NCBI GenBank assembly: GCA_021774335.1
Contig: JAJFJD010000012.1
Location: 181,331-245,330, forward strand
Length of the DNA stretch: 64,000 nucleotides
DNA from: Alphaproteobacteria bacterium
Lineage (GTDB): Bacteria; Pseudomonadota; Alphaproteobacteria; UBA8366
Direction: 5' to 3'
How positions within the stretch are numbered: position 1 is the first letter of the stretch; each line of letters opens with the position of its first letter. Positions 1,448 through 64,000 of the stretch are shown piece by piece. The position numbers and the translations under genes are program-made. Under the pieces are notes generated by a model. It ran no database searches, was not told where the DNA came from, and was given only the letters and a program-made list of their open reading frames with translations.

Positions 1448-1542
1448 GGAGGAGTATCGGGGCCGGTGTCTCGTGCGGTCTTCAAAACCGTTGAGGGGCG
1501 TACAACGTTCCTGGTGGGTTCGACTCCCACACTCTTCCGCCA
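1448..1542 (+). tRNA. selC: tRNA-Sec (anticodon UCA)
   Basis: 95 nt including an encoded CCA (1540-1542) and discriminator G (1539), the same length and ends as E. coli selC. The acceptor stem has 8 bp (GGAGGAGT 1448-1455 with ACTCTTCC 1531-1538, one G-U pair). The D arm has a 6-bp stem closing a 4-base loop, CGGGGC and GTCTCG with G-U pairs, a hallmark of tRNA-Sec. The anticodon loop is CTTCAAA with anticodon TCA at 1482-1484, which reads UGA. A long variable arm follows and the T loop has GGTTCGACTCC. The gene lies close to selB, as is common, and is needed to decode the TGA codons at 4690 and 63873. Confidence 0.97.
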
Positions 1543-2128: not shown

Positions 2129-2138
2129 GCGAAGTGAC

Positions 2139-3077
2139 CTAGGTTCCGACCGATGTCGACGACGGAATCCCCAGGAGGTCCAGGAACCCCTCGGCGGCGG
2201 GCGATGTCGGGCGATTCCTGATCCGCAGCAGGCCGAGTTTTCGCGTGATCGTAGGATTCGTGAGCGGCCGGGAGGCGATCGCGGCGTCGGGCTCGATGGC
2301 CAGTGCCGCTTCCGGCACGATCGACACGCCGATGCCGGACCGCACCAATGAAAAAACCGTGGCGAACTGACTCACCGTAATCGTGCGGCCGAAGCTGATG
2401 CCGGCGGTCGCGGCGCTCCCGTCGATCAGGCGCCGCATGCCCGCGCCGAAGGGCATCGTGATCACCGTTTCGTCCCGCAGATCCTTGACGCCCAGGCGCC
2501 GCCGGTTGGCCAGAGGGTGGTCGGTGCGCAGCACCACACGGAACCGTTCCTCGCGCATCGGGGTCGCTTCGATGGCATCCGGCAGGGCGGGGGAGTTGGT
2601 GATGTCGCCGATCCCGAAATCGACGAGGCCGCTACGCACGTCTTCGATCACAGTGCTCAAGAGGCCCTCGCGAATCTCCAGATCAACGCCGCGATGGCGT
2701 TGGTGATAGTCCGCGATGACTTTAGGCAGCACGCCGTAGGCGACCGACATCAGGCAGGCAATGACCAGGCGGCCGCGTTCCCGGGTCTGCAGCGCCCGCA
2801 TATTCTGTACGCTGATCGCGAGGTCGGCGAGCAGGCGTTCCGCGACCGGTACGAATTCCCGGCCGGCGCCGGTTAGCGCAACCCGTCTTGTGCTGCGGGT
2901 GAACAGCCGCACGCCCAGTATTTCCTCCACCCGCATGATCGCCCGGGTCAAGGCCGGTTGCGACATGCCGAGGTCGGTGGCGGCGGCGACGAAACTTCCA
3001 TACTGCGCCAGCGAGACGACGCAGCGGAGTTGCCGGGAACTGAGATCCTGTTTGTCGGCGTCGGCGGGCATCGGCAT
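2139..3077 (-). CDS. LysR-type transcriptional regulator, divergent from the UGSC locus
   Basis: 312 aa. The N-terminal winged helix-turn-helix (about 12-75) shows the family pattern LRCVVSLAQYGSFVAAATDLG then SQPALTRAIMRVEEILGVRLF; residues ~95-300 form the periplasmic-binding-like effector domain. LysR proteins usually control the gene they face, and this one faces the selenoprotein operon that starts at 3198 across a 120-bp gap holding a 12-bp palindrome. It is therefore the likely local regulator of the UGSC selenoprotein and its partner; the effector is unknown. A second ATG two codons inside is an alternative start. Confidence 0.9.
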   Translation of the reverse strand: MPMPADADKQDLSSRQLRCVVSLAQYGSFVAAATDLGMSQPALTRAIMRVEEILGVRLFTRSTRRVALTGAGREFVPVAERLLADLAISVQNMRALQTRERGRLVIACLMSVAYGVLPKVIADYHQRHRGVDLEIREGLLSTVIEDVRSGLVDFGIGDITNSPALPDAIEATPMREERFRVVLRTDHPLANRRRLGVKDLRDETVITMPFGAGMRRLIDGSAATAGISFGRTITVSQFATVFSLVRSGIGVSIVPEAALAIEPDAAIASRPLTNPTITRKLGLLRIRNRPTSPAAEGFLDLLGIPSSTSVGT

Positions 3078-3101: not shown

Positions 3102-3197
3102 GTGGAATAATAGAGCGAATTAGGAAAGTATTGAAGCGTTACGGTGTTCTGCGCATAGTTGGGCAACGGTTATTGCCACCAAGGGAAAGCAGAATCG

Positions 3198-4331
3198 ATG
3201 ACGGGTGACGCCCTCGCGAAACACAGCGCCGACAAGGAGACAGAGCCGTCGGTGGTTCCGAACGATATCGACCTGATCGAGTGGTATTACGAGAAGGGAT
3301 ATTCCGACGGTTTTCCCGTCGCGCCGCCGACGCCGGAAAAGGTCGAGGCGATGCTCGCGGCCCTCGGCGGCGATCCAGATTATGTCGAAGCCCGCGTTCC
3401 GCCGCGATGGGGCAATCTCACCCGTGAGGTGCTGGCCATCAACATGGTGATGGCCGGCTGCAAAACGGAATACGCGCCGGTCGTCCAGGCGGCGATGCTG
3501 GCACTGTGTTCCACCGCATTCAATCTGGTCGGCGTGCAGGCGACGACGCATATGGCGTCGCCGCTGCTGGTTGTGAATGGACCGATCCGGAACGAAATCG
3601 GCATGAACAGTGGGCACAATGTTTTCGGATCGGGCAACCGGGCAAACGCGACGATCGGCCGGGCGATCCGCATGGTCCTGTTGAACGTTGGCGGCGGATG
3701 GCCGGGAGAGTTGGACAAGAGCACGCTCGGCTCGCCTGCGAAATACACCTATTGCATCGCCGAGAACGAAGAGATCGGCTGCCTGGCGCCCTATCATGTC
3801 GAGAAGGGGTTCGATCAGGAGGACTCGACGGTTTTCGTGATGCCCGCCGAACCGCCGCACAGCGTAACCAACCATGTCTCGGACGATCCGGAAGGCATTC
3901 TCGACAGTATCGTCTCGGCGATGAGCACGATCGCGCATAACAACGCCGTCAGCGCCGGGCATTGCGCGGTCGTCATCGGGCCGGAGCATGCCAAGGTCAT
4001 GGCGAAATATCAGTGGACCCGTCACGATATCCGGCATTACCTGTGGTATCAGGCGACCAACACCTTCGGTGATGTGGCGTTCCAGCACCGCTACGGTAAG
4101 GTCTATAACCGCAGCCTGCCGAAATGGTACAAGCGCGATGTGGACGCCCGCATTCCGGTCGTCCCGACCCCGGACCACATTCATCTGTTCTGCGCCGGCG
4201 GCGAGGCCGGCCGATTCTCCGCCTTCATTCCGGGCTGGGGCCATATGGCAAGCCCGGTTCTCCGCGAACTGAATGGGCGTGCGCCGGCCGCCGGCGGCAT
4301 GATCTGCGAAGACGGAACGTGCCATCTGTAG
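3198..4331 (+). CDS. Uncharacterised partner protein of the UGSC selenoprotein
   Basis: 377 aa; the ATG at 3198 follows AAGGGAAAGC, better than an upstream TTG at 3159. I do not recognise a characterised family. Visible features are no signal peptide, no clear membrane segment, an N-terminal stretch DLIEWYYEKGYSDGFPVAPP, a central ATTHMASPLLVVNGPIRNE, and many cysteines, including IGCLAPYH, HLFCAGGEAGRF and a C-terminal CEDGTCHL with two cysteines four residues apart. The gene lies 55 bp upstream of the UGSC selenoprotein in the same direction, so the two probably form one operon under the divergent LysR protein. A redox or metal-related partnership with the selenoprotein is inference from this pairing and the cysteines. 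Confidence 0.75.
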   Translation: MTGDALAKHSADKETEPSVVPNDIDLIEWYYEKGYSDGFPVAPPTPEKVEAMLAALGGDPDYVEARVPPRWGNLTREVLAINMVMAGCKTEYAPVVQAAMLALCSTAFNLVGVQATTHMASPLLVVNGPIRNEIGMNSGHNVFGSGNRANATIGRAIRMVLLNVGGGWPGELDKSTLGSPAKYTYCIAENEEIGCLAPYHVEKGFDQEDSTVFVMPAEPPHSVTNHVSDDPEGILDSIVSAMSTIAHNNAVSAGHCAVVIGPEHAKVMAKYQWTRHDIRHYLWYQATNTFGDVAFQHRYGKVYNRSLPKWYKRDVDARIPVVPTPDHIHLFCAGGEAGRFSAFIPGWGHMASPVLRELNGRAPAAGGMICEDGTCHL

Positions 4332-4386: not shown

Positions 4387-4932
4387 ATGCCACTTGATGC
4401 CCCACAAACAGGCCAGGCCGTCTATGACCCGCGCGGCGTGGTCGAGGCGGTGCCGGTGCCGATTGGAAAGCGCGTCGAAGCGCTGAACGGTCTGCGCCTT
4501 GGCATTCTCAGCAATAAGAAGTGGAACGGTAACAATCTGCTGCGCAAGACGCAGGCCATTCTGCAAGACCAGATCGATTTCGCCGAGGTTCGGTTTTACG
4601 AGAAGGAGAGCTTCTCGAAGAACGCCGATCCGGGTCTCCTTGGAGACATCATCGCGGAAAACGATATCGTCCTCACCGCGATCGGTGATTGAGGGTCCTG
4701 CACGTCGTGCTGTATGCATGACGCCGTATCCCTCGAAGGCCAGGACCGTCCGACGGCGGTCATCGTGACGACGGAATTCGTTCATGAAGCCGAAGTGCAG
4801 CGCGACGCGCTTGGCATGAACGAGCTTGAGCCGGTTGTCATCACCCATCCGCTGAGCACGTTGTCCGACGAAGAAATCACGGAACGCGCGCAACAGGCCG
4901 CCGATCAGGCCGTGAAAATCTGGCTGGGTTAG
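4387..4932 (+). CDS. UGSC-family selenoprotein (in-frame TGA at 4690 read as Sec102)
   Basis: The ATG at 4387 has a strong AAGGAGGTGAC site. The frame meets TGA at 4690-4692 and then continues open for 79 more codons to TAG at 4930. Around the TGA the protein reads AIGD-U-GSCTSCCMHDAVSLEG, the signature of the UGSC family, in which U or C begins a (U/C)GSC motif; the family was noted in selenoproteome surveys of marine bacteria. Total 181 aa: a beta-rich N-terminal half (LRLGILSNKKWN) and a C-terminal half with TAVIVTTEFVHEAE. Sec102 and Cys105 make a redox-type UxxC pair, and Cys108 and Cys109 follow. A SECIS-like hairpin lies just downstream and selC is 2.8 kb upstream. Function is unknown; ending the gene at 4692 would split a conserved motif. 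Confidence 0.9.
4690..4722 (+). promoter_or_regulatory. Bacterial SECIS element of the UGSC gene
   Basis: The UGA at 4690-4692 is followed by a 7-bp stem, GTCGTGC (4704-4710) with GCATGAC (4716-4722, one G-U pair), closing the loop TGTAT (4711-4715). The loop begins 18 nt after the UGA and has G as its second base. This fits the published bacterial SECIS consensus of a short hairpin 16-37 nt away with G in the first two loop positions. A weaker alternative hairpin exists at 4700-4710. Confidence 0.7.
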
Positions 4933-62267: not shown

Positions 62268-63092
62268 TCAACGATGTCCAATTGCCAGATGCGCCTCGAT
62301 CGGGACAGCTAAGCCATCGCCGACCCTGTAGGTTTCCAGCGCGTTACGAACATCAGCAACGATTTTACCCTGTACCGCGGCATCCAGTTTCGCGACAGCT
62401 CCGGCAACAGGCGTGGCGGAAATATAGCCGGGGACGTATTCCTCCAGCGACGCGTGGCGGATTGTCTCGGCTTCGACGCGAATCTCAACATCTCGAAATC
62501 CCGCATCGACGACGTTTTGACGCAGCTGTTTGGCGTCGCCAAAACCGAATGCCGACCGAACTAATGCGGCCTCATCCTTACCCACATGGCGATCAACAGC
62601 CTCTGCAATGGCTGATTGCCAGGGACAATGTTCGATCGATCGCCAGACACTCACCAGGAGACGCCCCCCTGGTGCTAACACCCGATGCATCTCGGAAAGC
62701 GCCGCCGGCTTTTCGGGGAAAAACTGAAGACCGTGTTGACAGAGGATGCAATCGAAACTCGCGTCATCGAACGGCATTTCTGTGACGCTGCCTTCGTGCC
62801 AGTCAATCGTAGTGGGATTATCCTTAGATGCGCGCGCCCGGGCGAGCATACCGGCGTTGAGATCGAAACCGACCACACTACCTTTCGGTCCCACTTCCTT
62901 CGCTGCCAAACGAGTTACAACGCCAGTGCCGCAGGCAACATCCAGTACACTGTTGCCGGGCTCGATTTCGGCTGCCTTCACGAGACGTCGCGAGTAACCT
63001 CGCATGAAGGCGTCGACGATATAGGTGTCGTAGGCGAGCGGCGCATCACCGCCTAATTGCCAACCTGAGCCTTGCGCATTTGTTCCCGACAT
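62268..63092 (-). CDS. Class I SAM-dependent methyltransferase
   Basis: 274 aa with GGGAGACGGAGA in front of the ATG. Motif I VLDVACGTGVVTRLAAKEVG near 48-67, motif II VVGFDLNAGMLARARA near 73-88, and EMPFDDASFDCILCQHGLQFFPE near 106-128. Close in pattern to the methyltransferase at 60200, and like it of the UbiE type. It is transcribed away from the MerB-like gene. Target unknown. Confidence 0.88.
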   Translation of the reverse strand: MSGTNAQGSGWQLGGDAPLAYDTYIVDAFMRGYSRRLVKAAEIEPGNSVLDVACGTGVVTRLAAKEVGPKGSVVGFDLNAGMLARARASKDNPTTIDWHEGSVTEMPFDDASFDCILCQHGLQFFPEKPAALSEMHRVLAPGGRLLVSVWRSIEHCPWQSAIAEAVDRHVGKDEAALVRSAFGFGDAKQLRQNVVDAGFRDVEIRVEAETIRHASLEEYVPGYISATPVAGAVAKLDAAVQGKIVADVRNALETYRVGDGLAVPIEAHLAIGHR

Positions 63093-63410
63093 TCTCCGTC
63101 TCCCTGCACGCCAATCAAAAGCATCCTAACGCCGAGACTAGCGGTTTTGCGGTAATCACAACACTCTTCAGTTACAGGCAACCTATCCGTTGTATGTCCG
63201 GAGATGAGGGAACAGCGGACCACGATCAGCGGCGGGCTGACTTTGCTTCGTAGCCAACTCCGTAAGTCTCACCACCAAACTCGCTTGGCCAATTTGACGT
63301 TCTGAAATGAAGGATTTATGGCGGGATTCGATCCAACGCGTGCGGGGCGATGATGGACAATTGCCGGATCATGACCGTATGATGTGACACGATTATCGGA
63401 GGTTGTGATG
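63093..63410. other. 318-bp divergent gap before the MerB-like gene
   Basis: Holds the promoters of the methyltransferase (minus) and the MerB-like selenoprotein gene (plus). TTGACG occurs at 63294-63299 but no good -10 box at standard spacing was found. The MerB-like ribosome site GGAGG lies at 63398-63402. No gene was seen. Confidence 0.5.
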
Positions 63411-64000
63411 ATGGGCACGAGTCAGCTGGATCAGACCTATCATTTTATCATTCGGCGCTTCGTCGAAACCGGTCGGGCGCCCCACTACACCGACATCGCG
63501 CGTGAGTTTTCAGTGTCCCCCGATGATGGCAAGCACCTGCTGCATGAGCTGATGGCAGTCAGCTTGCCGAACTGGCTTTATCCGGAAACGGACCAGATCG
63601 TCTCCTTCGCGCCGTTCAACAATCTGCCGACGCATTACCGGGTCAGCGTCGATGGCGAGCAGAAGTGGTTCGCGCAGTGCGGATTGGAGTCGGTCGCGCT
63701 GTCCTGGCTTTTCCCCGGCAAGCAAGTCCGTGTCGATGCACCCTGTCTCGCGACCGGCGAGCCGCTCGGTTTTGCGATGCGCGACGGCGTCTTCGAAAGT
63801 CGCGAACCGGATGGCATTTGCATGTATGTCGACCTGCCAGTTTCCAAATGGTTCGGTAACCTGCCCTTTGCCTGAAGCCGCATGAACCTCTTTCGGTCGA
63901 AAGAGGATGCTCAAGACTGGTCGGAGTTCAAGCCGGGTACGGAGGACGGTATCCTGCCTCTGACCGTCGCTGCGGACCTGCTGTGCACGCCCCGCCACCG
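63411..64000 (+). CDS. MerB-like organometal lyase selenoprotein (in-frame TGA at 63873 read as Sec155), partial
   Basis: The ATG at 63411 lies 8 bases after GGAGG (one at 63408 is possible). MerB cleaves carbon-mercury bonds with Cys96, Asp99 and Cys159. Here PTHYRVSVDGEQKWFAQCGLES puts C90 at Cys96 and E93 at Asp99, followed by WLFPGKQVRVDAPCLATGEPL. The frame meets TGA at 63873 and continues open to the window end as SRMNLFRSKEDAQDW, the counterpart of MerB's stretch CNHVHFFAS after Cys159. So TGA sits exactly at the second catalytic cysteine and is residue 155. A SECIS-type hairpin follows. The N-terminal winged helix (GRAPHYTDIAREFSVS) is also MerB-like. The gene runs off the window. Confidence 0.85.
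63873..63906 (+). promoter_or_regulatory. Bacterial SECIS element of the MerB-like gene
   Basis: The UGA (63873-63875) is followed by CCTCTTTC (63887-63894), loop GGTC (63895-63898) and GAAAGAGG (63899-63906), a perfect 8-bp hairpin. The loop starts 19 nt after the UGA and opens with two G bases. The GGUC loop is the same as in the E. coli fdhF SECIS. This is strong support for reading the UGA as Sec. Confidence 0.85.

Follow-up and report, generated by a model that had tools for sequence, protein, structure and literature searches.

The last gene of the 64,000-nucleotide window analysed here, taken from an alphaproteobacterial metagenome-assembled genome (MAG; contig C4, JAJFJD010000012.1), encodes a homologue of MerB whose frame is interrupted by a TGA codon. 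MerB is the best-known carbon-mercury lyase. Frame +1 is open from 63411 up to the TGA at 63873-63875 and open again through base 64000. Since this base is the end of contig C4, the 3' end of the gene is missing: 196 codons are present, and complete homologues comprise 218-249 codons. The Pfam MerB model PF03243 matches residues 71-189 and hence the segments before and after the TGA (4.3e-18), and its gathering score is exceeded (65.9 vs. 27 bits). A MerB fold is present in the predicted structure model of the window protein. A pattern search with TGACGGTC located the window within its genome and was otherwise uninformative.

A sequence-only reading of the window had proposed that the TGA stands for MerB Cys159 and encodes selenocysteine (Sec), that the other catalytic cysteine is kept as C90 and that Asp99 is Glu. 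The MerB residue numbers and roles used here (Cys96, Asp99, Cys117 and Cys159, with Asp99 as proton donor) are those we assume for this enzyme. In two multiple alignments, residue 155 falls into the Cys159 column, which it shares with the lone Cys of an annotated Streptomyces F12 MerB (CNQVHFF), with L012 (CSHVNLF) and with other Cys-type homologues. The alignments confirm the two further assignments as well, with C90 on Cys96 and E93 on Asp99. In pairwise phmmer alignments, residue 155 is paired with Cys159 in 3f2g (C160S mutant) and with the single Cys present in MerB2 (5c17). The residue before the TGA is Ala in the window and Ala, Ser, Arg, Leu, Met or Thr in the relatives displayed.

Table 1. 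Features of the window discussed in the text (window coordinates).
Feature	Position	Strand	Remark
MerB-like gene with putative Sec codon, 3' side cut by contig end	63411..64000	+	start ATG 63411 (or 63408); homologues begin at the matching Met
Likely ribosome site CGGAGG	63397-63402	+	
Cys90 codon TGC, MerB Cys96 equivalent	63678..63680	+	TGA in 6 relatives
Glu93 codon, MerB Asp99 equivalent	63687..63689	+	
Cys112 codon, MerB Cys117 equivalent	63744..63746	+	conserved
In-frame TGA, inferred Sec155, MerB Cys159 equivalent	63873..63875	+	
Bacterial SECIS-type hairpin, 8 bp	63887..63906	+	GGUC loop 63895-63898
tRNA-Sec (selC)	1448..1542	+	
UGSC-family selenoprotein gene, Sec at TGA 4690-4692	4414..4932	+	NF041046 138.8 bits vs. 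cut-off 125; start codon not fixed
S-adenosylmethionine-dependent methyltransferase (UbiE/ArsM-like), divergent neighbour	62268..63092	-	below the cut-off of every NCBIfam family shown

Conservation of the TGA codon and the downstream hairpin

A scan of genome contigs yielded 13 relatives, and together with the window gene the TGA is found at the same codon in 14 of 14. The relatives belong to Alphaproteobacteria, Burkholderiales, Nitrospinae, Deltaproteobacteria (labelled Myxococcota in the tree), Chloroflexota or Dehalococcoidia, Rokubacteria, and Actinomycetes or Acidimicrobiaceae, six phyla in all. In profile searches of genome sets with a threshold of 1e-20, matches were obtained in the phylum of G103 (11 of 400 genomes, three of them with Cys), in the phylum of G102 (23 of 95, some as fragments; G102, G104, G107 and G109 were already known) and in the window's own class (two of 385, namely the window gene and one Cys form). 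After removal of six duplicate loci (L055, L056, L066, L072, L080, L081), 48 distinct genes cover the site, 43 with TGA and five with Cys (L012, L045, L048, L050, L082). The 43 include clade B (L046, L047, L049, L051, L053), whose members are 24-27% identical to the window protein and have Asp at position 93; the Cys types L045, L048, L050 and L082 are 24-26% identical to it. In the protein database, at least 1130 of 7996 scored candidates pass 1e-5. Among the matches listed, 91 of 120 homologues end at the site, as judged from length and last residues, 85 of them at exactly 155 residues. The question whether all homologues end here can be answered in the negative: The Cys-type proteins P0004, L045, L048, L050, L082 and L012 run straight through.

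The hairpin, which had been likened to a bacterial selenocysteine insertion sequence (SECIS), is present as described and near-invariant in the 43 genes across phyla. It reads CCUCUUUC-GGUC-GAAAGAGG, with eight perfect pairs and the loop 19 nt past the TGA. Cys-type genes lack it, as judged by eye. As proof of Sec on its own, the hairpin was ruled out. Of the 1752 TGA triplets in the window (both strands), eight (about 0.5%) are followed at equal spacing by a perfect stem of at least 7 pairs, five of these by one of at least 8, and two also have GGT at the loop; furthermore, its folding z-score is only -1.12. It is the TGA in 14 of 14 genes combined with the near-invariant hairpin in 43 genes that lifts it above chance. 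In these 43 genes, pairing holds in 97.7% of the cells of the 7-pair stem compared to 44-59% with the partner slid. One stem pair shows a double substitution, from C-G to U-A, in the window, L013 and L014, and four vary on one side.

Substitution patterns around the hairpin were analysed in 33 genes (without duplicates, L025, fragments and clade B). Synonymous divergence in the seven-codon segments starting at codons 160 and 159 amounts to 0.15 and 0.16, the two lowest values of 161 (median 0.58). pN/pS is 0.40 for codons 166-196 compared to 0.22 for codons 40-150 (84 close pairs). Low synonymous divergence together with constrained codons 166-196 is what a translated tail with an embedded RNA element would be expected to show.

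Genes with TGA at both metal-binding positions

A more unusual feature lies beyond the region on which the sequence-only reading had commented: Some relatives have a TGA at both C90 and C155. In six genes (L019, L042, L043, L052, L054, L070), codon 90, the MerB Cys96 position, is TGA, too. In the remaining 33 TGA genes spanning both sites, codon 90 encodes Cys. All six double-TGA genes retain the acid at position 93. A stem of at least 6 pairs (G-U allowed) follows the first TGA in six of six, with a GGUCA loop in L019; at the same position in 28 single-TGA genes the median stem is 5, and at least one is 7. This means, the first SECIS element of the double-TGA genes is weakly supported. One genome, G246 (phylum of G103), holds three different double-TGA MerB-like genes (L042, L052, L054).

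Among the matches listed, 29 database proteins span both sites, 27 with Trp/Trp and two with Cys/Cys (P0004, P0010). The most plausible reading of Trp at exactly these two columns is a TGA translated under code 4, and the 27 proteins may add to the double-TGA set. As they are known as protein sequence alone, they were counted apart from the six genes. Genuine recoding to Trp (code 4) was not accepted, because P0041, one of these proteins, has L043 as its nearest relative read at the DNA level, and in L043 both sites are TGA and the host carries tRNA-Sec. In a tree of 31 DNA-read genes, the label single or double needs at least four changes, three of them forced by well-supported branches. A wider tree took in 11 of the 27 Trp/Trp proteins and left out eight 155-residue proteins. 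In this tree, the 11 Trp/Trp rows are mixed among single-TGA rows, and Cys/Cys P0004 is located inside the TGA group. Taken together, these label changes and placements suggest that Cys and Sec have been exchanged repeatedly at the first site.

Selenocysteine machinery and genomic neighbourhood

Absence of selA or selD from the genome had been named as an argument against Sec. However, selA, selB, selC and selD were all found. The selA gene (C4:178312-179667) lies before the window, selB (C4:179701-181590) ends at window base 260, and selC is located within the window. The selD match (G000:C38:4650-5579) contains one in-frame TGA. A second SelD match over the cut-off (C62:27362-28279) is devoid of an in-frame TGA. 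In other hosts of the TGA form, tRNA-Sec was detected in 12 of 12 searchable genomes with best matches of 65-82 bits; control genomes gave weak matches. At 1e-9, it was found in 22 of 24 further TGA-form hosts, and three of 14 control genomes were also positive. Including the window's own genome, 35 of 37 TGA-form hosts have tRNA-Sec.

The MAG also contains a mer cluster (L110, G000:C13:9000-14528) at a contig end. It is composed of MerA (509 bits), a small open reading frame (ORF), a Cys-type MerB relative (PF03243 3e-31) and a TlpA-like protein. This MerB relative scores 64-70 bits, below the cut-offs of the NCBI MerB models (68.2 and 64.3 vs. 200 and 193) and of SaoL.

Other selenoprotein genes were found within 3 kb of the Sec-MerB gene at five loci. 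At L015, a DsrE-like gene (PF02635; 4114-4473, +) with an in-frame TGA is located directly upstream. At L016, a GrdB-like gene (2130-3017, +) with the TGA in UPVCHQTVS lies upstream; it passes Pfam GRDB (25.4 vs. 22) and misses the NCBIfam cut-offs for GrdB and PrdB. A similar gene is present at L097. At the two Rokubacteria loci L018 and L020, the Sec-MerB gene is preceded by a UGSC gene and a relative of a 390-residue ORF, and one small ORF lies in between. In the window, the 390-residue ORF (3159-4331, +) precedes the UGSC gene and is matched by no Pfam or NCBIfam model. Its L020 relative is 42% identical across 324 columns.

Interpretation and comparison with known systems

The proposal of Sec at the Cys159 position is supported, and its features are conserved across phyla: Very likely, the UGA is read as selenocysteine via the downstream hairpin. 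The best explanation for the window gene is a protein of predicted MerB fold that carries this Sec and would act as an organometal lyase; we assign it a probability of about 0.6. TGA column, conservation of TGA and hairpin, constraint behind the TGA and Sec machinery were computed, the fold was predicted, and synthesis of the full-length protein and the reaction are inferred. The relatives in six phyla are very likely selenium-containing enzymes of one family, with cleavage of carbon-metal bonds as the predicted reaction. A carbon-metal lyase would be the most likely function because the metal-ligand and acid positions known from MerB are retained, one or both ligands being Sec.

In MerB, thiolates displace the ligands of R-Hg+, and an acid protonates the leaving carbon. 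By analogy, Cys90 and Sec155 might hold a soft-metal alkyl and cleave its carbon-metal bond. In this scheme, R-Hg+ or a similar cation would exchange its ligands for the selenolate of Sec155 and the thiolate of Cys90, with Glu93 as proton donor to the departing carbon. According to the sequence-only reading, selenium in place of sulfur might alter turnover or substrate. In the six double-TGA relatives, both metal ligands would be selenolates. Methylmercury is one candidate substrate. For the window's organism, another organometal is as likely because the MAG also has a Cys-type MerB relative beside MerA. The odds are about even for a still broader view, that a large branch of the MerB superfamily with active-site selenium has been overlooked outside mer operons. 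Part of this branch would be diselenolate enzymes, each Sec with its own SECIS element; the first site would swap between Cys and Sec, the second would be Sec with rare reversion, and six phyla would share a new selenium-based organometal chemistry.

Several observations weigh against a Sec-containing lyase. The phmmer alignment with wild-type MerB 1s6l opens a gap, and residue 155 lands on Cys160, one position off. Equivalence to Cys160 was discarded: The pairwise alignments disagreed, and the multiple alignments gave Cys159. Position 93 of the window protein is Glu, not Asp. The outer stem pair of the hairpin is broken in six of 43 genes, and at least as many both-side pair changes as observed occur in 119 of 500 shuffles. 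Stem covariation is weak, with the stem hardly varying; sequence conservation of the hairpin is the stronger sign. An Rfam search returned no family matching the hairpin. In the search at 1e-9, tRNA-Sec was not found in the TGA-form hosts G564 and G584, and the Cys-type host G049 has it, alone among five Cys-type hosts. In addition, L023 carries an in-frame TAG near its start, and L025 and L071 are apparently frameshifted. At 34 loci, mer genes were not recognised among the two nearest ORFs per side. Neighbour families are common to at most six of these loci, at varying places, and a common operon was rejected. The neighbours were viewed by eye and six proteins scanned; the window locus has no downstream side. 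MerA exceeds its cut-off in only four of 33 TGA-form hosts (G000, G100, G206, G465) and in one of four Cys-form hosts. The Cys-type MerB relative in a separate mer cluster on another contig makes the Sec gene dispensable as the mer lyase of the MAG. The MAG is 7% contaminated, though, so that the contig could be foreign.

The rarity of MerA, the neighbour picture and the nearby selenoprotein genes at five loci would permit a carrier or redox role. Cys90 and Sec155 of a MerB-fold selenoprotein might serve as a metal or metalloid carrier or form a selenenyl-sulfide redox pair, and Glu in place of Asp99 would be in line with this. Nevertheless, we consider such a non-lyase rather unlikely: The positions of MerB C96, Asp/Glu99, C117 and C159 are kept (C or U, acid, C, U), which a plain carrier would not need, and the acid at 93 persists in the six double-TGA genes. 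It is doubtful, if quite conceivable, that the lyase acts on methylmercury in particular, as a MerB upgraded with Sec for trace amounts of this compound. Predicted fold and ligand positions are as in MerB, selenium has an affinity for mercury, and G000, G465, G206 and G100 possess MerA. On the other hand, MerA over the cut-off is absent from 29 of 33 hosts, and the Cys-type relative is available in the mer cluster of the window's own MAG.

Two explanations do without Sec. Translation might stop at the TGA and restart at the ATG two codons past it, yielding a two-piece MerB. Met158 follows the TGA in 43 of 43 TGA genes (A10 T11 G12 invariant), and, as mentioned for the matches listed, 91 of 120 database gene calls stop at the site. 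However, stop-free Cys types mostly keep this Met (P0004 CSNMNLF, L082 CSTMLFF) or have it one place on (L045, L048, L050; CSNTMVFF), L012 with Val being the exception. The stop is always TGA in the 43 genes, never TAA or TAG, and tRNA-Sec tracks the TGA form, which makes a restart very improbable. Ordinary decay of a merB gene by a nonsense mutation can practically be dismissed. With a mer cluster present elsewhere in the MAG, the window copy could be dispensable, and L023, L025 and L071 look damaged, but an identical stop in six phyla, purifying selection before and after the TGA and a near-invariant hairpin are at odds with a pseudogene.

Provided that the organometal lyase is real, the genes offer a natural series on one scaffold, from Cys/Cys (P0004) via Cys/Sec (window) to Sec/Sec (L019, L043 and others). 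This series would be a direct way to ask what selenium adds to the cleavage of metal-carbon bonds. Gene callers mostly cut the Sec branch at residue 155, and scores are far below the MerB and SaoL cut-offs where tested. Therefore, surveys of merB could overlook or miscount such genes.

The sequence-only reading also has to be corrected as regards precedent: SaoL, a MerB homologue with Sec, has been published before, with the TGA in the same column. SaoL belongs to the SAO (Sec-assisted organometallic) system (NF040728) and, like the window protein, to the MerB family PF03243 with one Sec. A 2026 review (PMC13188914) presents it as a MerB-like selenoprotein with one Sec and the motif CU, and a MerB-like selenoprotein is listed under the SaoL accession in a 2022 review (PMC9312934). 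The MerB-like entry is partly credited to a 2008 GOS paper (PMC13188914, PMC9312934) and also to a 2016 ISME J paper (PMC9312934). The main texts of both credited papers do not mention 'MerB', nor does the word occur in the deep-Sep paper. SaoL was found above the cut-off in two of 395 genomes. One of them, L083 (TC-TGA-NVMNFF; 175.7 bits), has its TGA in the alignment column of the window's TGA, so that Sec in the Cys159 column is already known from SaoL. By contrast, the window protein reaches only 27.3 bits with NF040728 (cut-off 140), and two close relatives, the five clade B and three Cys-type proteins reach 30-53 bits. Instead of the Cys-Sec pair of SaoL, the window has Ala-TGA with no Cys before Sec, and the double-TGA form exists in the window's branch. 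As far as searched, two things appear to be new: a broader Sec branch that the SaoL model does not capture, and the six genes with TGA at both metal-binding positions. In the open-licence literature searched, a MerB carrying Sec at both positions was not found, the supplements of earlier lists being outside its scope; earlier selenoprotein lists may hold members of this branch.

With MerB (NF033555, NF009710, PF03243), the window protein shares the predicted fold, the C96, C117 and C159 positions and an acid at 99. It differs from MerB by Sec for C159 (in six relatives also for C96), Glu for Asp99 and Ser for Cys160. Thus, the MerB set of two Cys ligands (96, 159) and Asp99 appears here as Cys90, TGA and Glu. 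In contrast to MerB, mer neighbours were not recognised beside the window gene, and it scores 26.1 bits with NF033555 (cut-off 200) and 33 bits with NF009710 (cut-off 193). MerB2 (PDB 5c17) is a Cys enzyme with Ser aligned at the Asp99 position. The Cys-type MerB-like proteins L045, L048, L050 and L082 are homologous to the window protein and have Cys in the TGA column, in hosts without detected tRNA-Sec.
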